Shown: positions 41,606 to 50,968 of the stretch, piece after piece
Layout: the number at the start of each line of letters is the position of its first letter
Position numbering within the stretch: position 1 is the stretch's first letter
Assembly (NCBI RefSeq): GCF_000190315.1
Contig: NC_015151.1
Coordinates: 558,001-622,000, forward strand
Length of the DNA: 64,000 nt
Direction: 5' to 3'
Source: Vulcanisaeta moutnovskia 768-28
GTDB taxonomy: Archaea; Thermoproteota; Thermoprotei; Thermoproteales; Thermocladiaceae
Program-made: the position numbers and the translations under genes
The notes under the pieces: generated by a model
What the model was told of the DNA's origin: nothing
The model's database searches: none
Seen by the model: the letters and a program-made list of their open reading frames with translations, nothing else

Positions 41606-42403
41606 TTATTTTAAACCAAGCCTCTTAATGAGCTCCTTAGCTATATCCTCGGGACTCCCTTCAATGAATTGGCGTAAACGTTCACGAGGCCTTAACTCCC
41701 TTAGCTCCGTCACGGCAGTTAATGAACCCTTAAAGCCAACCTCATCCTCAGTAAGGCTTAGGTCCTTAATACCCCATACTGTTGTCTTGAACTGGCTCTG
41801 GGCCCACTGCAACCTCTCAAAATCTGGAAATCTAGGTGTATTTACACCGAGTTCTACTGATATTACGGTAGGCATCTTAACCTTAACAATCTCGTATCCT
41901 CCCTTAATAGTCCTCTTGACAATTATTGAATCTTCGGTTACATCAATGACCTGAGAAACATATGTAACTGCTGGAATACCCAACCACTCAGCTATGCCAG
42001 GAGGTACTTGCCCCGTTGAACCATCCTCACTCTCCTCACCAGTAATAATAACCGAATAATCACCTATCTTTTTAATAGCGGCCGCAAGGACTCTAGAGGT
42101 TACAAAGGCATCGGAGCCACCCAATGCTTTATCACTTATTAATACCGCGTCATCGGCGCCCATGGCTATGCCCATCTTAAGGAATTGATCCCAGAATTGC
42201 GGACCCATGGACAGTATGATCACCCTACCTCCGAACTTCTCCTTTAATTGTAGGGCTAGCTCCAGGGCATTCTTATCCGCTGGATTTATCTCATTAGTCG
42301 CCTTTGATCTGTCGACAGTCTTAGTGACTGGATCAAACCTTATCTCCTCGGGCTTTGGCGTTACCTTCATTGTAACTATTATGTTCCTGAGAGAGACCAT
42401 CAC
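41606..42403 (-). CDS. etfB: Electron transfer flavoprotein beta subunit
   Basis: A 265-residue EtfB/FixA protein with the opening VTMKVTPKPEEIRFD...INPADKNALELALQL and GADDAVLISD; STGQVPPGIAEWL is in the conserved AMP/NADH-site helix. It binds AMP or, in bifurcating ETFs, a second FAD; sequence alone does not decide which. It is the last gene of the kor-hdr-etf block, and its ATG overlaps the etfA stop by 4 bp (ATGA). Its electron partner is therefore expected to be the neighbouring Hdr/Kor proteins, not an acyl-CoA dehydrogenase, none of which is present. Confidence 0.9.
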   Translation of the reverse strand: MMVSLRNIIVTMKVTPKPEEIRFDPVTKTVDRSKATNEINPADKNALELALQLKEKFGGRVIILSMGPQFWDQFLKMGIAMGADDAVLISDKALGGSDAFVTSRVLAAAIKKIGDYSVIITGEESEDGSTGQVPPGIAEWLGIPAVTYVSQVIDVTEDSIIVKRTIKGGYEIVKVKMPTVISVELGVNTPRFPDFERLQWAQSQFKTTVWGIKDLSLTEDEVGFKGSLTAVTELRELRPRERLRQFIEGSPEDIAKELIKRLGLK

Positions 42404-43389
42404 TTACCACCCCTCAACTCCTTTATCAATGCCTTAAGCAAATCGAATAAGTCAGCCACAATACAGTAATCACAGTTCTCAAATATTGGTGCCTCCCTAT
42501 CGGTATTAACCGCAACTATTGTGCCGCAATCCCTGATACCATAGATAAAGTGTGGGGCACCGCTGGCGCCAAATACGAATACTGTCTTAGCTCTTAACGA
42601 AATACCTGTAGTGCCTATTTGATAATCCCTAGGTATTATACCCATGTCTGCAAGTGGTCTCGTTACACCAACAGCAGCACCAATTAGGTTTGCGAATTCC
42701 CTAATTAACTCTAGATCACCACCAGTTCCAAGCCCAGCCACAACAACCTTCTCGGCCCTTGATAAGTCTGGCATTGGTGAGGTCTTCTTCTCTACAAGCT
42801 CTATTCTGTGACCCTTCAATACATCCTCAGGAACCGCTTCCTCGATTACGGTAGCCTCCTTATCACTTAACCTGGCTTCATAGGTTCCTGGACTTACAGT
42901 GGCCATTTCAGGCTTACCACCTGTACAAACCACAGTAGCGACTATATTACCGCCAAAACCAGGTACTGCAGTGACCAACTTCCTATCCTTTTCATCAATA
43001 TCAACCATAATTACATGAGCACTCAAACAAGCTCTAAACCTAACGGCCAGTCTACCCGCGAGATCCCTCGAATTCCTAGTAGCTGGTAATAATAAGTATC
43101 TAGGCCTGTACTTATTAACTAAGTAAGTCATGACCTCAGTATAGGCATCACTATTGTAATGCCTTAAGTCAGGGTGATCAACAATGATGAGCTTATCGGC
43201 ACCATACCTAGAGGATTCCTTGGCCATGTCCCTTAATTCATGGCCTAATAATACGCCGAGAACATCCTCATTAAATCTTCTACCCAGTTCACCTGCTCTC
43301 GTCAAAACCTCAAGTGAAGCCCTCTCCAGCTCACCGTTGTCCTGCTCAATAAATACGAATATTCCTCTCCACTCGCTCATGTTAATCAC
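42400..43389 (-). CDS. etfA: Electron transfer flavoprotein alpha subunit
   Basis: A 329-residue EtfA/FixB protein. The C-terminal FAD domain is clear: QIGTTGISLRAKTVFVFGASGAPHF, then IRDCGTIVAVNTDREAPIFENCDYCIVADLF. The N-terminal domain supplies the interface with EtfB. It overlaps the HdrCB gene by 8 bp and etfB by 4 bp. In this block ETF probably passes electrons between Hdr-type Fe-S/flavin centres and a quinone or NADH; direction is not determined by sequence. Confidence 0.92.
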   Translation of the reverse strand: MINMSEWRGIFVFIEQDNGELERASLEVLTRAGELGRRFNEDVLGVLLGHELRDMAKESSRYGADKLIIVDHPDLRHYNSDAYTEVMTYLVNKYRPRYLLLPATRNSRDLAGRLAVRFRACLSAHVIMVDIDEKDRKLVTAVPGFGGNIVATVVCTGGKPEMATVSPGTYEARLSDKEATVIEEAVPEDVLKGHRIELVEKKTSPMPDLSRAEKVVVAGLGTGGDLELIREFANLIGAAVGVTRPLADMGIIPRDYQIGTTGISLRAKTVFVFGASGAPHFIYGIRDCGTIVAVNTDREAPIFENCDYCIVADLFDLLKALIKELRGGK

Positions 43390-44515
43390 CCATAATACTG
43401 TCTAGGAACTCAACTAGGTCCATAACCTTCATGTTAGTTTTCACGACCTTATTCGCATCCTCAAGCATCCTAAAGCAATAGGTGCATGCTGTAAGCACGA
43501 TGGATGCACCAGTATCGATGGCCTCCTTCAACCTGCGCTTCGATAAATCAGTGGATACTCTAGTCTCAAGGGTTATACCCCCACCACCAGCACCGCAGCA
43601 AAGGGATTTCTCCCTTGAGTGAGCCATTTCAACAAGCCTAACACCAGGTACTGATGTGATTACTCTCCTGGGCTCCTCAATAATTCTCTGATGCTTAGAT
43701 AAGTAACACGGATCATGATAAGTCACGGTAATGTCTGCCTTCTTATCAATCTTTAACTTACCACTACGTATAAGTTCATCAAGCAATTCAACGTAATGAA
43801 CAACCTTAACACCCTTAAGATACTTCTTAAGTGAGTACTCACAGTGTGGTGATAATGTCACTATTACTGGAGCCTTAACACTACTCATTATTGAGTCCCT
43901 CAACTTTGCTGTGTACTCCTCGTAGAATACTTTGTTACCTGTATGCTCAATAATGTCACCACAGCAAGATAAACCAGTGTACATGCCTACCTTGAGGCCG
44001 GCCTTGGTCAATACCCTAATCAAGGCCTTAATGTGCTTCTGAACTCTTGGATCTCCAATTGATAAACAGCATGGATAAATAACCACATCTGGGTTTTCAT
44101 TATTAATTAGACCACTGAATTGAGCTAAGAATCTTCTTTTATCAGTGACTGTGTAACCCCAGGGATTCTGGTTCTCATAAATCTTCCAAAGTATCTCATT
44201 AATCTTTGTTGGGAATACCTTGGACTTCATCGCCATTGTTCTAATTACCTCCACAAGATTCACAATTTCAACGTTGTTAGGGCATAGGGTTTGGCAGGTG
44301 CCACAGGTTACGCAGTCCCAAATGACCTTGTAATCCTTTGGATCAACGATACCAAGCTGAGCCTTCTTAACAATTAGCCTAATATTATATGACTCATCAG
44401 TTATTGGGCAGTAAGTACTACATGTACCGCATTGATAGCAAAGGCTTAATGTGGGTACTATCTTAAGGAGCTCCTCCCTAAGACCAAAGTTAACGGTTAC
44501 TGGCATGTCTATCAC
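43382..44515 (-). CDS. HdrC-HdrB fusion, heterodisulfide reductase-like Fe-S protein
   Basis: 377 residues. The N-terminal HdrC-like part has two 4Fe-4S motifs, CYQCGTCSTYCP and CVTCGTCQTLCP (about residues 26-79). The C-terminal HdrB-like part has two CCG regions. The second is canonical (PCYLS...SLCCGAGGG...ACTYC) and could hold a non-cubane cluster. The first is degenerate (PCCLS...SCCGDI...PHCEYS). It resembles HdrD/GlpC-type electron carriers. It overlaps hdrA by 4 bp and etfA by 8 bp. It likely links HdrA to ETF; a CoM-CoB heterodisulfide substrate is not expected in a non-methanogen. Confidence 0.88.
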   Translation of the reverse strand: MIDMPVTVNFGLREELLKIVPTLSLCYQCGTCSTYCPITDESYNIRLIVKKAQLGIVDPKDYKVIWDCVTCGTCQTLCPNNVEIVNLVEVIRTMAMKSKVFPTKINEILWKIYENQNPWGYTVTDKRRFLAQFSGLINNENPDVVIYPCCLSIGDPRVQKHIKALIRVLTKAGLKVGMYTGLSCCGDIIEHTGNKVFYEEYTAKLRDSIMSSVKAPVIVTLSPHCEYSLKKYLKGVKVVHYVELLDELIRSGKLKIDKKADITVTYHDPCYLSKHQRIIEEPRRVITSVPGVRLVEMAHSREKSLCCGAGGGGITLETRVSTDLSKRRLKEAIDTGASIVLTACTYCFRMLEDANKVVKTNMKVMDLVEFLDSIMGD

Positions 44516-47500
44516 CTCAATTGCTTTATTCTTTGTTTCGTCTGCTCAATCTCCTCCTTAGTCACAGTCTTAACAACCTTCTCAGCCTCCTTCATAGTTT
44601 CGACAAGGTCAACTACATCCGGAGCACCAAATAGTCTTAATTGGAACCTCTCTTCCCTCACACCTATGTTCTTTAATCTCTTCTTCCAGTTTTCGAATCT
44701 CTTGACCGTGTTGTAGTTCGCGGTTATGTAGTGGCAGTCACCGAGCCTACAACCAGTCACGAAAACTCCAGCAGCACCAAGCTCAAAGGCATGCTTAACA
44801 TGTTTCCAAGACAACCTAGAACTGCACTGAAGTCTAATAATCCTAGCATATGGTGGGTATTGCATCTTAAATATGCCAGCATTATCGGCGGCCCAGTAGG
44901 AACAGTAGGCGCATGTGAACATGACAACCTTCTTCTCAGGCTCCTCAGCCAGGGCAGCATCAATCTGAGCCATAATAGCATCATCACTTAAAGCCTCAAG
45001 TGTTATGGCGTCCTGTGGACACTCGGCCACGCATGAACCACAGCCCTGACAAGCGGCTGGTATGTGCTCAATCCATTTACCCGGTACACCCCTAATGGCA
45101 CCATATGGACAAGCCTTAATACAGAGACCGCACTTAGTGCATTTAGACCAATCAAACTTTGGAATAAATGGCTCTTTAGTGACATAGCCCTGGGCAAGCA
45201 TCATCAACGCCCTTGATGCAGCTGCGTAACCCTCAGCTATTGTCTCAGCCACGTTCTTTGGACCCCTGGCAGCACCTGCTATGAATATTCCAGGCGTCAT
45301 CGTATCCACGGGGCCAAGTTTCGGATGAGCCTCCATTAAGAAGCCCTCCTGATCCTTGGAAAGTCTCAGTACCTTAGAGACCTCGTCCGTATCCTCACTT
45401 GGTACTAAGCCTATGTTAAGGACAATATTGTCAAATGGTACCTCAACATCATCCCCTAACTCAACATCATTAACTATCAACTTATCATTATCCATCTTTA
45501 TAGCCTCGGTTAATTCCGCCTTTCTTGGTATTCTAATGAAGAGAACGCCAGCATCCCTAGCTTTCTTGTATAGATCTTCGACCTCGGGATCAACACCCAT
45601 TATATCCCTATAAATTAGGACTACATTCTTACCCTGGTTCCTTAGTTCAATTGCCTTACTCAAACCCACGGCACAACAATACTTTGAACATCCCCTACCA
45701 CTGGTCCTAGAACCAACGCAGTTTATTACTGCCACATTCTTGCCATCAACGGTCTTCCCATTCTCAAGATCTAATGTTGTTAATACCCTGGGATCCTTAC
45801 CATAATTAAATTCACTTGGTATGTAAGGCTTAGCACCCGTAGTAACTACTATCGCACCAACATCAAATTCTGCACCATTGCTAAGAACTACATGGAAGCT
45901 TCCTGTGAATCCAGAGACATCCTTAATCGTTGCCCCAAGCATGAACTTAACACCGACCTCCTTAGCCTCCTCAACCATTTTATCGAGTAACTTCCTAGCC
46001 TCAATACCCTCAGGCTCAAGCCTATTTAGATGCCTAAGCATGCCACCGCACTCATCAGCCTTCTCGACAAGTATTGTCTCAATACCTGCACCGGCTAATC
46101 CAGTAGCTGCCGCGAGACCAGCTGGCCCACAACCAACAACCAATGCCCTCTTAATTACTGGCAGTTTTATCGTATTTAATGGTACCATGTGATGAGTCTT
46201 GGCTACCGCCATCCTTATCATGTCCTTCGCCTTCTCTGTGGCCGCCTTCCTATCGTTGTGCACCCAAGTGTCTAGGTTCCTAATGTTAGTCATCTCCACG
46301 AGGTATGGATTAAGGCCAGCCCTCTTGGCGGAGTCTTGGAAAAATCTGAGATGCGTAACTGGGGAACATGAAGCAATGACCACTCTATTCAGTTTCTTCT
46401 CCTTTATTACCTCTGTTATTCTGTCTAGTGATGACTTTGCACATGCGAATTGGAGATCCTCAGCATGGACAACGCCAGGCATTTGCTTAGCTGCTTCAAC
46501 CAAGGCTGGTACGTCGGCTACACCGGCTATATTTGTGCCGCAGTGGCATACAAATACACCTACCCTGATTGGGTATGGCTCTATAGTTTCCTCATACTTC
46601 TCCTCCTCAATCATACCAGGACCTGCATACCTAATTGCCTGTATTGCAGCGGCTAATCCAGTGACCACTGATTCGGAGATATCCCTAGGTTTACTAACTG
46701 AACCGGCAACAAAAATACCTGGTCTTGTGGTTAATGTGGGATTTGTTGACTCTGCTCTTACAAAGCCAGCCCTATTCAATGAAATGCTTAATATTTTACT
46801 TAACTTATTCATGTCGCTAACAGGTTTTATGGAAGGTGCGAGAACAACCATGTCATACTCCTTCATAGTAACTTTTTTATTCCTGGTATCCTCAAACCTA
46901 ACGATTATCTTACCATTCCTCTCACCAACTATCTCCGGTCTACCCCAAACAATGTTTACCCCTTCCTTGAGGGCTCTATCGAAGAAACTCTCGAATCCCT
47001 TACCGTACGTCCTAACATCATTCATGTACATTATAGTCACATTTTTAATGCCATGAAGTACCTTGGCGTATATACCTTGTTTAAGCAAGTATGTGCAGCA
47101 AAAACCTGAACAATAATCATTATACTTATTATTTCTTGAGCCAACACAGGACACAAGCAATACGTTCTCTGGCTCCTCGCCGGTGCTCGGTTTAACAACG
47201 ACACCACTTGATGGTCCTGACGCATTAACAAGCCTCTCAAATTCAAGTGAGGTTACAACATCCATATGCTTGCCATATCCATACTCTCCAAGGATGTCAC
47301 TCCTTTCAAGTTCGAAACCGGTTGACACGATCACGGCAGCCACGTCGCGCTCTATGACCTTTGGCATCATTGTGTATATTATGGCATTCCTATCACATGC
47401 CTTGGCGCACCTATCACATGGAAAGTAATTTGGTGGTTTATTGAGACAATGATCTATATCCAGCATGTATATACCTGGTTCCGCCTGTGGGAATGGTAGT

Positions 47501-47925
47501 GGTTCCGCCTGTGGGAATGGTAGGTATATGGCCTTCCTCGCGCCAATACCTGCCTCAAACTCACTAGGAACAACCACCGGACATACATCTTCACACTGGC
47601 CACATTTGGTGCAATCATCAGTTACGTATCTGGGTTTAACGAGTATCCTAGCCTTAAAGTCGCCTGGAGATCCTGATAAATCAAGTAGTTCGGCTGGCGA
47701 TAATAACTCGATGTATGGATGCCTAGCAACATCACTTATTAATGGACCCTCTATACATATGCTACAATCCAGTGTTGGAAATGTCTTATCGAGCATCGCC
47801 ATCTTACCGCCAATAGCTGGGGACTTCTCAACAAGCGTAACCCTATAACCCATGTTGGCTAAAGCCAGGGCAGCTTCAATACCAGCAATACCACCACCTA
47901 GAATAAGAATCCTGTTTGTGGGCAT
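44512..47925 (-). CDS. HdrA-HdrA-MvhD fusion protein
   Basis: 1137 residues. The first HdrA-type FAD unit (GGGIAGIEAALAL, residue 9 on) has ferredoxin-like cysteines CTKCGQCEDVCP and later CDRCAKACD. The second FAD unit (GCGPAGLAAATGL, about 585 on) is followed by CTKCGLCIKACP and CQGCGSCVAECP. The C-terminal MvhD-like 2Fe-2S domain reads FTCAYCSYW...LQCSS...GCRLGDCHY. The halves resemble QmoA and QmoB, respectively. A 24-bp in-frame tandem duplication (LPFPQAEP twice) lies near residue 135. It is placed between kor and hdrCB/etf genes and is predicted to be the electron hub. Confidence 0.88.
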   Translation of the reverse strand: MPTNRILILGGGIAGIEAALALANMGYRVTLVEKSPAIGGKMAMLDKTFPTLDCSICIEGPLISDVARHPYIELLSPAELLDLSGSPGDFKARILVKPRYVTDDCTKCGQCEDVCPVVVPSEFEAGIGARKAIYLPFPQAEPLPFPQAEPGIYMLDIDHCLNKPPNYFPCDRCAKACDRNAIIYTMMPKVIERDVAAVIVSTGFELERSDILGEYGYGKHMDVVTSLEFERLVNASGPSSGVVVKPSTGEEPENVLLVSCVGSRNNKYNDYCSGFCCTYLLKQGIYAKVLHGIKNVTIMYMNDVRTYGKGFESFFDRALKEGVNIVWGRPEIVGERNGKIIVRFEDTRNKKVTMKEYDMVVLAPSIKPVSDMNKLSKILSISLNRAGFVRAESTNPTLTTRPGIFVAGSVSKPRDISESVVTGLAAAIQAIRYAGPGMIEEEKYEETIEPYPIRVGVFVCHCGTNIAGVADVPALVEAAKQMPGVVHAEDLQFACAKSSLDRITEVIKEKKLNRVVIASCSPVTHLRFFQDSAKRAGLNPYLVEMTNIRNLDTWVHNDRKAATEKAKDMIRMAVAKTHHMVPLNTIKLPVIKRALVVGCGPAGLAAATGLAGAGIETILVEKADECGGMLRHLNRLEPEGIEARKLLDKMVEEAKEVGVKFMLGATIKDVSGFTGSFHVVLSNGAEFDVGAIVVTTGAKPYIPSEFNYGKDPRVLTTLDLENGKTVDGKNVAVINCVGSRTSGRGCSKYCCAVGLSKAIELRNQGKNVVLIYRDIMGVDPEVEDLYKKARDAGVLFIRIPRKAELTEAIKMDNDKLIVNDVELGDDVEVPFDNIVLNIGLVPSEDTDEVSKVLRLSKDQEGFLMEAHPKLGPVDTMTPGIFIAGAARGPKNVAETIAEGYAAASRALMMLAQGYVTKEPFIPKFDWSKCTKCGLCIKACPYGAIRGVPGKWIEHIPAACQGCGSCVAECPQDAITLEALSDDAIMAQIDAALAEEPEKKVVMFTCAYCSYWAADNAGIFKMQYPPYARIIRLQCSSRLSWKHVKHAFELGAAGVFVTGCRLGDCHYITANYNTVKRFENWKKRLKNIGVREERFQLRLFGAPDVVDLVETMKEAEKVVKTVTKEEIEQTKQRIKQLR
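47477..47524. repeat. 24-bp in-frame tandem duplication inside hdrA
   Basis: Two adjacent 24-base copies, 47477-47500 and 47501-47524, starting ggttccgcctgtgggaatgg, differ only in the final base. On the coding strand they give LPFPQAEP twice. The near identity suggests recent replication slippage or selection on a loop length. Confidence 0.85.
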
Positions 47926-47929
47926 GCAA

Positions 47930-48520
47930 TCACCTTAACCCCTGTAGGAATTTACGACCATAATCAAATCCCGCCTGGAACGCCTTTATGTTCATTTCCT
48001 GGATGGAAGTATCGAGCTTACCAGCCCTCCTCGTCACATTCCTTATTGCATTAATTATATAATCCTCCTTTAATAGTGGTTCGAGAATTGCCGTAATAAC
48101 ACCAACAAGGACTACGTTCATTGTTAATCTCCTGCCCGTTACACTTTCCGCTATTTCCGTTGCTGGTACAGGAATTATTACGTAATCATTAGTATTTGAA
48201 ATTGCTGGTTTATATATTGTACTTTCATAAATAAATATACCACCCTTACGGAGACTCTTAAACTCAAGACTAAATGCCTGTTGATTAGTTGCAAGGAATA
48301 CGTCAGCTTCATCAATAAGCGGATAATCAACCATCTCCTTAGCTATTATAAGATCAGCTCTAGACCAACCACCTCTCTGTTCAGGACTATACGTTATTGT
48401 TAGTATTGAGTCAAGACCACCCATTGCAGCTGCCATACCCAGAAGTCTGCCGGCAAAGACTATGCCATGACCGCCAAGCCCCATAAGCCTAATACGTATC
48501 TGATCGAGCTGTTGTTGCAT
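47930..48520 (-). CDS. korC: 2-oxoacid:ferredoxin oxidoreductase, gamma subunit
   Basis: A 196-residue gamma-type subunit with GLGGHGIVFAGRLLGMAAAMGG at the start, the SPEQRGGWSRADLIIAKE motif and FLATNQQAF. It completes a KorDABC set whose other genes lie just upstream. 111 bp separate it from korB, the largest gap in the block, and an AT-rich box (aaaatttattaagg, minus strand, about 48555-48568) could act as an internal promoter. It is 4 bp from hdrA. Confidence 0.9.
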   Translation of the reverse strand: MQQQLDQIRIRLMGLGGHGIVFAGRLLGMAAAMGGLDSILTITYSPEQRGGWSRADLIIAKEMVDYPLIDEADVFLATNQQAFSLEFKSLRKGGIFIYESTIYKPAISNTNDYVIIPVPATEIAESVTGRRLTMNVVLVGVITAILEPLLKEDYIINAIRNVTRRAGKLDTSIQEMNIKAFQAGFDYGRKFLQGLR

Positions 48521-48631
48521 ATTTTTCTATTGATAAATAATTATGAAACCTTAATAAATTTTATTCTAGTTTGACAAAAATTATTTTAAACTATACGTAA
48601 CAACAAGAAGAAAGTTTAAATTTTATGATCA

Positions 48632-49468
48632 CTATCCATATGAAATAGGTCTCTCTCTTTTCACAAAATTTCCCAGGATTACCTTCTTCATGCTAAAGTC
48701 TATTTCTAAATCAGCCAAGTTCGCATTATGATCTATTACCGGTCTCTCCTTCAAAACCTTCATTAAGTCGACAGCATCACCCATGGCATTTCTATCAGTA
48801 TAGATTATGCAGGGCGATAAGACCTCAACAACAGCAAAGCCCTTAACCTTAAACATATCAAGGAGGGATTGATAAAGCTCATTCTGGTGTAGGACAGTCC
48901 ACCTAGCCACATATGAAGCCCCTGCTGCATATGCTAGTAATGGTACATTGAATGGATTCTCGTAATGACCATACGGTGATGTCGTCGTCTTAGCACCCTT
49001 AGGTGTAGTTGGGCTGTATTGCCCACCAGTCATTCCATAGATAAAATTGTTTACTATTATGACATTAATATCATCATTCCTCCTAGCAGCGTGTATGAAG
49101 TGGTTACCACCAATGGCCAGTATGTCACCATCACCGCCGACTACCGTCACCTCGAGTTCTGGATTAGCCATTTTTAGACCCACGGCAAATGGTATAGCCC
49201 TACCATGAGTTACGTGATATGCATCTAACTTTAAATACCCACCAAGCCTACCCGTGCAGCCTATGCCTGTGACTATCACGTGCTTCTCAATTGGTATGCC
49301 AGAGTTCTTTATAGCCCTCGCTAATAGCTTAAGTAGTATCCCTAATCCACATCCTGGGCACCATATATGCGGTAATCTATCAATCCTTATTAAGTCCTTA
49401 ATATCCTCATAGGACTTGGGAAGCTCTACCTTAACTCCCGTGGTTGTTACTTCAGCCTCTACACTCAT
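48632..49468 (-). CDS. korB: 2-oxoacid:ferredoxin oxidoreductase, beta subunit (thiamine diphosphate binding)
   Basis: 278 residues. The thiamine diphosphate motif is GGDGDILAIGGNHFIHAARRNDDINVIIVNN. Cysteines CPGC, GIGCTG and SPCIIY provide the proximal 4Fe-4S cluster. The GQYSPTTP run and lack of a fused gamma domain favour 2-oxoglutarate oxidoreductases over pyruvate oxidoreductases. It carries out oxidative decarboxylation of 2-oxoacids to acyl-CoA with reduction of ferredoxin. It overlaps korA by 4 bp. Confidence 0.92.
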   Translation of the reverse strand: MSVEAEVTTTGVKVELPKSYEDIKDLIRIDRLPHIWCPGCGLGILLKLLARAIKNSGIPIEKHVIVTGIGCTGRLGGYLKLDAYHVTHGRAIPFAVGLKMANPELEVTVVGGDGDILAIGGNHFIHAARRNDDINVIIVNNFIYGMTGGQYSPTTPKGAKTTTSPYGHYENPFNVPLLAYAAGASYVARWTVLHQNELYQSLLDMFKVKGFAVVEVLSPCIIYTDRNAMGDAVDLMKVLKERPVIDHNANLADLEIDFSMKKVILGNFVKRERPISYG

Positions 49469-50646
49469 TTCTCGATCACCTTTCTCACATTATTTATTAC
49501 ATAATCAGGATCAGGAATATAACCAGGGGCATACGGTATATGCTCCACAGGAACCCCCTTAGAAAACTCCCTAACTACATGGTACATCTTGCCCATATTG
49601 ACCTCAACAGTTATGAGCTTCTGAATGCCCCTCGAAACCAAGTTCTCCACAACCCAACCAGGGAATGGCCAAGCCGTCTTCGGCCTAAGCATACCAACCC
49701 TATAGCCCTGTGCCCTCAATACCTTTATTGCTCTCCTTACAGAGCCTGAGGTCGAGCCATAGGAAACAATGACATACTCAGCATCATCAAGTAAGTACTC
49801 CTCCCACTCCGCTATTTCCTTCTCATTCTCCCTAATCTTACGGACGAGCCTCATGACGAGCTTAAACGAAGAATCCCTATCAGTGGTTGGATATCCCTTG
49901 TCAGTATGTGTTAATGATTCATTATTAGCCCTATAGCCAGTACCGGCAATAGCCATGGGCGGTACTAAATACCTACTATCATAGGGTAGATATTGATCTG
50001 GCGGTACCGTTGGCTTTGGTCTCTCAACGATCTCAATCTCATCAAACTCAGGAACCCTGACCTTACCATACATATGCCCAATTAATTGATCAGAAAGCAC
50101 TATTGCTACTACCCTATATTTCTCAGCCATATTGAAGGCCTTTATCGTGAAGTCAAAGGCCTCCTGAGGATTAGCCGGCAGGTAAGCCACTATTTCATAA
50201 TCGCCATGAGAACCATACTTAGCCTGAAGAATGTCACCCTGCCCTAGTAATGTTGGTATTCCTGTTGATGGACCTGCCCTCATAACATTAACAATCACAG
50301 CTGGAATCTCAAGCATTGAGCCAAGCCCAATCTCCTCCTGCATTAGGGAGAAGCCAGGACCTGATGTTGCTGTCATCGACTTAACCCCAGCAGCCGATGC
50401 GCCTAATACAGACATTATGCTACCTATCTCATCCTCCATCTGTATGAACTTACCATTAACCTGAGGTAACCTATACGACATATACTCAGCAATCTCATTT
50501 GACGGAGTTATTGGGTAACCACCGTAAAATCTACAACCGGCCGTTACCGCACCCTCAGCAACCGCAGTATTACCATCTAGAAAGTGAATACCAGGCCTCA
50601 ATAATTTATCCAGATCCTTTTTATAAAGCTCAGCCACTGTGGGCAT
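49465..50646 (-). CDS. korA: 2-oxoacid:ferredoxin oxidoreductase, alpha subunit
   Basis: A 393-residue alpha subunit with the family signature GCRFYGGYPITPSNEIAEY (YPITP loop) and ATSGPGFSLMQEEIGL. The C-terminal half has RVGMLRPKTAWPFP. With beta, gamma and the ferredoxin-like delta it forms KorABCD-type 2-oxoglutarate synthase; 2-oxoglutarate is the likely substrate but other 2-oxoacids cannot be excluded. It overlaps korD by 17 bp and korB by 4 bp. Confidence 0.9.
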   Translation of the reverse strand: MPTVAELYKKDLDKLLRPGIHFLDGNTAVAEGAVTAGCRFYGGYPITPSNEIAEYMSYRLPQVNGKFIQMEDEIGSIMSVLGASAAGVKSMTATSGPGFSLMQEEIGLGSMLEIPAVIVNVMRAGPSTGIPTLLGQGDILQAKYGSHGDYEIVAYLPANPQEAFDFTIKAFNMAEKYRVVAIVLSDQLIGHMYGKVRVPEFDEIEIVERPKPTVPPDQYLPYDSRYLVPPMAIAGTGYRANNESLTHTDKGYPTTDRDSSFKLVMRLVRKIRENEKEIAEWEEYLLDDAEYVIVSYGSTSGSVRRAIKVLRAQGYRVGMLRPKTAWPFPGWVVENLVSRGIQKLITVEVNMGKMYHVVREFSKGVPVEHIPYAPGYIPDPDYVINNVRKVIEK

Positions 50647-50968
50647 GCCTACTCACCCCATAGTATTTATCATAAGTTATGTATTCCTCTGAAACAACGG
50701 TAATGGCGAAGTCAGGGCAAACCTTCTCGCACATTCTACAAGCAACACAGTCAAGTTCCTTACCTGGTTTAACAACTGGGTAGTGATAACCCTTGATGTT
50801 GACGTCCTTAGATTCTTCAAGAACGTCATTAGGGCAAAACTCAATACAGAACCTGCAATCCTTGCAAAGATCAGGGTTAACGATAATCTTACCAATTGGT
50901 CGTTTCATCTTATGGAGATTAACGAGCCTACGCATGGACCAAACCTCGTCATGTTGAGCTAAAATCAT
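50630..50968 (-). CDS. korD: 2-oxoacid:ferredoxin oxidoreductase, delta (2[4Fe-4S]) subunit
   Basis: A 112-residue ferredoxin-like subunit with two clusters, CKDCRFCIEFCPND and CVACRMCEKVCPDF. It is the first gene of the block and takes electrons from the beta subunit cluster. The ATG at 50968 is supported by a TATA box (minus strand agatttaaaaaca, 50995-51006) about 30 bp upstream, so the N-terminal 20 residues before the conserved KRPIGKI are probably translated. Confidence 0.88.
   Translation of the reverse strand: MILAQHDEVWSMRRLVNLHKMKRPIGKIIVNPDLCKDCRFCIEFCPNDVLEESKDVNIKGYHYPVVKPGKELDCVACRMCEKVCPDFAITVVSEEYITYDKYYGVSRHAHSG

Follow-up and report, generated by a model that had tools for sequence, protein, structure and literature searches.

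A conserved eight-gene block in Vulcanisaeta moutnovskia and other Thermoproteota that may link a 2-oxoacid oxidoreductase to an electron-transferring flavoprotein through HdrA and an EtfD-like protein

Heterodisulfide reductase (Hdr) complexes and electron-transferring flavoproteins (ETFs) are two of the principal routes by which anaerobes achieve flavin-based energy coupling, and are as a rule considered separately. In the MvhADG-HdrABC and FdhAB-HdrABC complexes of methanogens (PDB 5ODC and 7BKB), HdrA serves as a flavin adenine dinucleotide (FAD) hub that includes MvhD as well as inserted and C-terminal ferredoxins, and HdrC-type cubane clusters feed the CCG clusters. Two bifurcation sites have been proposed for the type II HdrA of methane-metabolising archaea (PMC12054007), and HdrA-HdrA-MvhD fusions are frequent in TACK archaea (PMC11237513). 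On the ETF side, EtfD (a DUF224-type ETF:menaquinone oxidoreductase; 9OJN) provides an iron-sulfur chain connecting ETF to menaquinone, and FadF and DgcB, which lack the D1 ligands, are also thought to accept electrons from ETF (PMC13083937). Features of all these systems recur in a block of eight genes (korD-korA-korB-korC, hdrAA, hdrCB, etfA and etfB) within a 64,000-nucleotide stretch, the window, of the Vulcanisaeta moutnovskia genome (one contig of 2,298,983 bases). In contrast to the methanogen complexes, this block encodes two fused HdrA units and an EtfD-like CCG protein that replaces HdrB; it has neither hydrogenase nor formate dehydrogenase, and a 2-oxoacid oxidoreductase (Kor) and an ETF adjoin instead.

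An earlier note, made from the letters of the window alone, had proposed this block at positions 41606-50968. All eight open reading frames (ORFs) were found there on the minus strand, with junctions exactly as described: five overlaps (17, 4, 4, 8 and 4 bp) and two gaps, one of 111 bp between korB and korC and one of 4 bp between korC and hdrAA. Pfam and NCBIfam back each of the family assignments. "HdrCB" is EtfD-like rather than HdrB-like. No subunit looks membrane-spanning, consistent with the membrane-free character that had been proposed. We consider it reasonably probable that the block encodes a soluble module in which KorABCD is linked to a dedicated EtfAB through HdrAA as a hub and HdrCB as an EtfD-like wire; direct coupling of Kor, Hdr and ETF is the best explanation of the observations below. 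Gene content and order, the shared inheritance of the block and the residue signatures are observed, and from these the electron path and its direction, the substrate and a physical complex are inferred. No earlier description of the eight-gene module was found in the literature searched, which did not cover key subscription papers.

Conservation of the block was followed in a sample of 398 Thermoproteota genomes (labels beginning with f, g, G and L denote families, genera, genomes and loci of this sample). HdrAA orthologues in the Vulcanisaeta genomes examined, some of these genomes being fragmented, are 86-94% identical where complete and have the same neighbours. All matches at about 90% identity or more among named genomes belong to Vulcanisaeta, and no HdrAA orthologue with module neighbours was found elsewhere in its class. 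Full-length relatives with 47-54% identity (46-53% by BLAST over the ORFs) occur in 11 of the 398 genomes, which represent four further families (f23, f25, f27 and f40). All 11 carry the identical eight-gene order, nearly gap-free, although one contig stops before etfB (L082) and another within it (L086); the joint module that had been claimed is thus real and kept as a unit. A single class (44 genomes in the sample, 10 of them with the module) includes families f23, f27 and f40, and f25 and Vulcanisaeta lie outside it. In nine loci that were read (L088-L096), HdrAA relatives of at most 44% identity lack kor-etf surroundings. Module-type EtfA (E<=1e-66) was matched in module genomes only, each time inside the module. 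Outside Vulcanisaeta, module EtfA and HdrAA coincide in 11 of 11 genomes, and chance adjacency was therefore rejected. KorD is 88-93% identical within Vulcanisaeta and 47-59% identical in the distant modules. The flanking genes examined are not common to all families, and the GC content of the module (0.438, against 0.39-0.405 in its flanks) is not informative by itself.

By its sequence, HdrCB is a soluble EtfD-like iron-sulfur protein and not a disulfide reductase. Among PDB entries, mycobacterial EtfD matches it best (155 bits, with HdrB and HdrC chains at 65 bits or less), and EtfD is also the top fold match of an AlphaFold2 model (mean pLDDT 89; TM 0.81 by query length), a ranking that favours EtfD in part because HdrB and HdrC chains each cover only a portion of HdrCB. 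The residue signatures would thus seem a stronger argument than the fold match. Cluster D2 of EtfD is bound by Cys637, 672, 673, 709 and 712 and by His583, and is non-catalytic because it is His-ligated (PMC13083937). All module copies of HdrCB retain the five Cys and the His (the invariant His224 in V. moutnovskia), together with an intact CCG2 and the HDPC and CCGxGG signatures. These traits, the HdrC-like clusters and the CCG pair are shared with EtfD, FadF and DgcB, as is an ETF partner, here by gene adjacency. Unlike EtfD, HdrCB (377 amino acids) lacks a transmembrane domain, with no hydrophobic segment above threshold where an EtfD-like 680-amino-acid protein of V. moutnovskia has five, and it adjoins HdrA and Kor rather than a heme b and quinone domain. 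CCG1 also differs, having CC but missing the first Cys of CxxC; in 15 of 15 module copies this motif reads SPHC or SPHS, with one or both Cys gone. Eight HdrBs of the same phylum have the CxxC and lack the EtfD-type His.

The usual annotation, under which HdrCB would reduce some disulfide and the ETF would be incidental, draws on the family names and on the TfrB-like and HdrC models of NCBIfam, both of which match HdrCB below their cut-offs. However, an HdrB with two catalytic noncubane clusters carries two CxxC motifs, and HdrCB has a single intact noncubane site; the loss of CxxC from CCG1, His capping as in the non-catalytic EtfD cluster (PMC13083937) and the restriction of module EtfA to the block make this annotation very improbable. 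Disulfide-reductase function of the HdrB type was rejected on these grounds, and an EtfD-like HdrCB would explain the presence of ETF in the block.

HdrAA carries two TrxR/FAD domains in a single chain, as does type II HdrA. Its N-terminal half can be aligned to HdrA over the FAD domain and the ferredoxin inserted there, and its C-terminal half comprises an N-terminal iron-sulfur domain, another FAD domain, the C-terminal ferredoxin and the MvhD [2Fe-2S] domain. Every module copy has the K409 equivalent in the N-half, and E356 is likewise kept except in f25 (Asp); the Vulcanisaeta protein has both, along with the cluster Cys C386, C399, C403 and C404. The C-half also keeps its cluster Cys in Vulcanisaeta, but the K409 position is Ser there, His in f25, Tyr in f27 and f40, and Lys in f23. 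Because of this Ser, two bifurcation sites are unlikely in Vulcanisaeta HdrAA. The double TrxR domain, MvhD and N-half bifurcation residues are shared with type II HdrA and the TACK fusions; in the accessible text of the two studies, the contexts described are HdrBC with FdhB/molybdopterin proteins, and no Kor-Etf context is given (PMC12054007; PMC11237513).

Several minor features of HdrA-type genes were also recorded. The LPFPQAEP duplication (24 bp) of V. moutnovskia hdrAA is not present in the other module copies aligned. A further type II HdrA paralogue occurs in other Vulcanisaeta (L044:8646-12413 and L045:7550-11230) beside hdrC and a different POR cluster, with cluster Cys lost in the C-half; the L045 locus also holds citrate synthase pieces, an acetolactate synthase-type thiamine pyrophosphate (TPP) enzyme and ketol-acid reductoisomerase (KARI). 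This paralogue has no match in the V. moutnovskia genome. A QmoA/QmoB-like pair in V. moutnovskia (L039:8112-11448), near a DsrE-family gene, is 36-40% identical to the HdrAA halves.

The closest solved relatives of both module ETF subunits are bifurcating ETFs (EtfABCX 7KOE, Bcd-Etf 5OL2, CarDE 6FAH and LctBC 7QH2), which score 133-160 bits for EtfB and 139-198 bits for EtfA (full-length matches), compared with 61-85 and 79-96 bits for canonical ETFs. In Clostridioides difficile EtfA, R136 touches N5 of the beta-FAD and has been termed strictly conserved (PMC5691135). An Arg occupies this position in the four solved bifurcating ETFs and in an EtfABCX-like EtfA of V. moutnovskia, whereas module EtfA has Val in 15 of 15 copies; in addition, no dehydrogenase or EtfCX adjoins the module ETF. 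The absence of an acyl-CoA dehydrogenase, pointed out earlier, holds at the locus but not genome-wide: V. moutnovskia has seven genes of the acyl-CoA dehydrogenase family, and by their coordinates none of the seven adjoins an ETF pair. In addition to that of the module, this genome has two ETF pairs, one beside FixC-like and small FixX-sized genes (EtfABCX-like) and one beside the EtfD-like 680-amino-acid protein. Module genomes other than this one also have further ETF pairs. Since such a pair lies directly beside an acyl-CoA dehydrogenase gene in four g67 genomes, the module ETF probably has a different task. Next to the module of the three f40 genomes, no more than a few kb from korD, there is a divergent cluster encoding both an acyl-CoA dehydrogenase and an AMP-forming acyl-CoA synthetase.

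In the proposed electron path, the TPP and iron-sulfur clusters of Kor would pass low-potential electrons to KorD and thence to HdrAA, with the FAD of its N-half as the candidate site of bifurcation. Electrons would then move through the HdrC-type clusters to the His-capped noncubane cluster of HdrCB, which would exchange them with the alpha-FAD of ETF, and ETF would in turn exchange with a partner encoded elsewhere, such as an acyl-CoA dehydrogenase, EtfCX or an EtfD-type quinone reductase. Net 2-oxoacid oxidation toward ETF seems somewhat more likely than the reverse direction. A bifurcating or confurcating role is attractive because a drop from Kor to ETF without a third partner would waste energy. 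In the stronger, three-pole form of this proposal, the HdrAA flavin of a supercomplex would receive low-potential electrons from Kor (or from ferredoxin) together with high-potential ones from ETF and release them at mid potential via MvhD, and reverse flow would drive reductive carboxylation. The constancy of K409 and near-constancy of E356 in the N-half, the inserted ferredoxin, the second FAD domain, MvhD and the proposal of two bifurcation sites for type II HdrA (PMC12054007) are in its favour. Against these stand the loss of the C-half Lys in Vulcanisaeta, f25, f27 and f40, the lack of the N5 Arg in EtfA, and the absence from the block of any gene for a mid-potential partner of the MvhD domain, such that the three-pole arrangement is possible but, on balance, doubtful.

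Five component trees (HdrAA, HdrCB, KorA, KorB and EtfA) were compared informally. The main groups agree across them: the HdrAA, KorA, KorB and EtfA trees place Vulcanisaeta with f25 and f27 with f40, and the midpoint-rooted HdrCB tree departs in grouping f25 with other families. In some trees f23 sits on weaker branches, and certain deep EtfA and KorB branches are weak. Module KorA forms a 100/100 clade that includes four f23/g39 genomes with kor only. Because the component trees largely agree, the block seems to be old and mostly co-inherited, with its hdr-etf part lost in g39.

Certain observations weigh against a direct linkage of Kor to ETF. Co-conservation of kor and hdr-etf, suggested earlier as a check, holds for the 11 distant genomes but breaks down in the four f23/g39 genomes, which retain kor without hdr-etf; Kor is thus not dependent on the block. 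In Vulcanisaeta, the korB-korC gap (106-111 bp) is AT-rich and partly conserved, and distant modules have no such gap, so an internal promoter is possible there and the spacer may divide transcription. The EtfD reading of HdrCB is drawn from its sequence and from a model of the single chain, and a TfrB-like HdrC-HdrB fusion model, compared by score alone, reaches 166 bits against a cut-off of 385. The missing mid-potential partner counts here as well. The kor-only g39 genomes and the Vulcanisaeta spacer, along with the loss of hdr-etf as a unit, could also indicate an operon of convenience, in which Kor would use free ferredoxin and HdrAA-HdrCB-EtfAB would be a separate ferredoxin:ETF oxidoreductase, merely co-regulated. 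However, module KorA is one clade with near-zero spacing to the block outside Vulcanisaeta, and related kor genes also adjoin Hdr or Mvh modules in several families; we therefore regard mere co-regulation as unlikely. In genomes of f23 and f40, including kor-only ones, homologous genes of 326-355 amino acids (Table 1), perhaps candidate regulators, run divergently from korD.

Table 1. Positions of the module genes and associated features (window coordinates unless a locus is named).
Feature	Position	Strand	Description
korD	50630..50968	-	ferredoxin subunit of 2-oxoacid oxidoreductase, 2x[4Fe-4S], CxxCxxCxxxC motif twice
korA	49465..50646	-	alpha subunit, POR_N + PFOR_II
korB	48632..49468	-	beta subunit, TPP_enzyme_C
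korB-korC spacer, 111 bp	48521..48631	-	korC-proximal half well conserved in Vulcanisaeta, AT-rich
korC	47930..48520	-	gamma subunit, POR domain
hdrAA	44512..47925	-	type II HdrA, HdrA-HdrA-MvhD fusion, 1137 amino acids
tandem duplication in hdrAA, 24 bp, exact	47476..47523	-	LPFPQAEP twice, inserted-ferredoxin region
hdrCB	43382..44515	-	predicted soluble EtfD-like Fe-S protein: HdrC-type 2x[4Fe-4S] + two CCG domains
etfA	42400..43389	-	ETF alpha; Val in place of N5-contacting Arg
etfB	41606..42403	-	ETF beta; closest solved relatives are bifurcating ETFs
gene divergent from korD	L078:3717-4703, L085:3967-5034, L106:8778-9824		no Pfam match

All four Kor subunits (KorABCD) were identified by Pfam and NCBIfam. 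KorA exceeds the cut-off of a single model, the broad 2-oxoacid:acceptor alpha model NF006412 (489 bits; cut-off 411), and scores under that of the 2-oxoglutarate synthase alpha model. The enzyme would belong to the broad class of 2-oxoacid:acceptor oxidoreductases, with 2-oxoglutarate as one possible substrate. A comparable principle operates in NADH-dependent phenylglyoxylate oxidoreductase (Pad), a Kor-type enzyme that has a flavoprotein of its own as electron outlet, although the flavoprotein there is a different one and neither Hdr nor ETF takes part. Related kor genes lie beside hdrA-mvhD with a fusion of HdrC to a pyridine nucleotide (NAD(P)H) oxidoreductase-like protein in f15, f45 and f49, beside hdrA, hdrC and hdrB in G005 and G212, and beside mvhD and hydrogenase-like genes in G289 (likewise in G135, by position and size only). 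Because these clusters adjoin different acceptor modules, they suggest a general modular design in which Hdr and Mvh proteins are adaptors between Kor-type enzymes and varied partners.

Should the proposed module be borne out, archaea without methanogenesis would gain a defined use for HdrA, "HdrCB" annotations that lack a disulfide substrate would be explained, and the idea is open to a sharp test in cultured Vulcanisaeta strains. A broader and rather speculative extension, which we hold to be somewhat unlikely, is that the block encodes a soluble complex of a class not described before, one that performs flavin-based bifurcation or confurcation. Here, 2-oxoacid oxidation or reductive carboxylation would be coupled directly to the ETF pool, HdrA would be a general adaptor fitted by lineage with NAD(P)H, H2, disulfide or ETF modules, and ETF would have ceded bifurcating flavin chemistry to HdrA. 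Among the related clusters, L112:3183-6467 holds kor by MvhD and by proteins that match, in Pfam, NADH dehydrogenase 20-kDa (of the hydrogenase small subunit type) and the large subunit of NiFe-hydrogenase.

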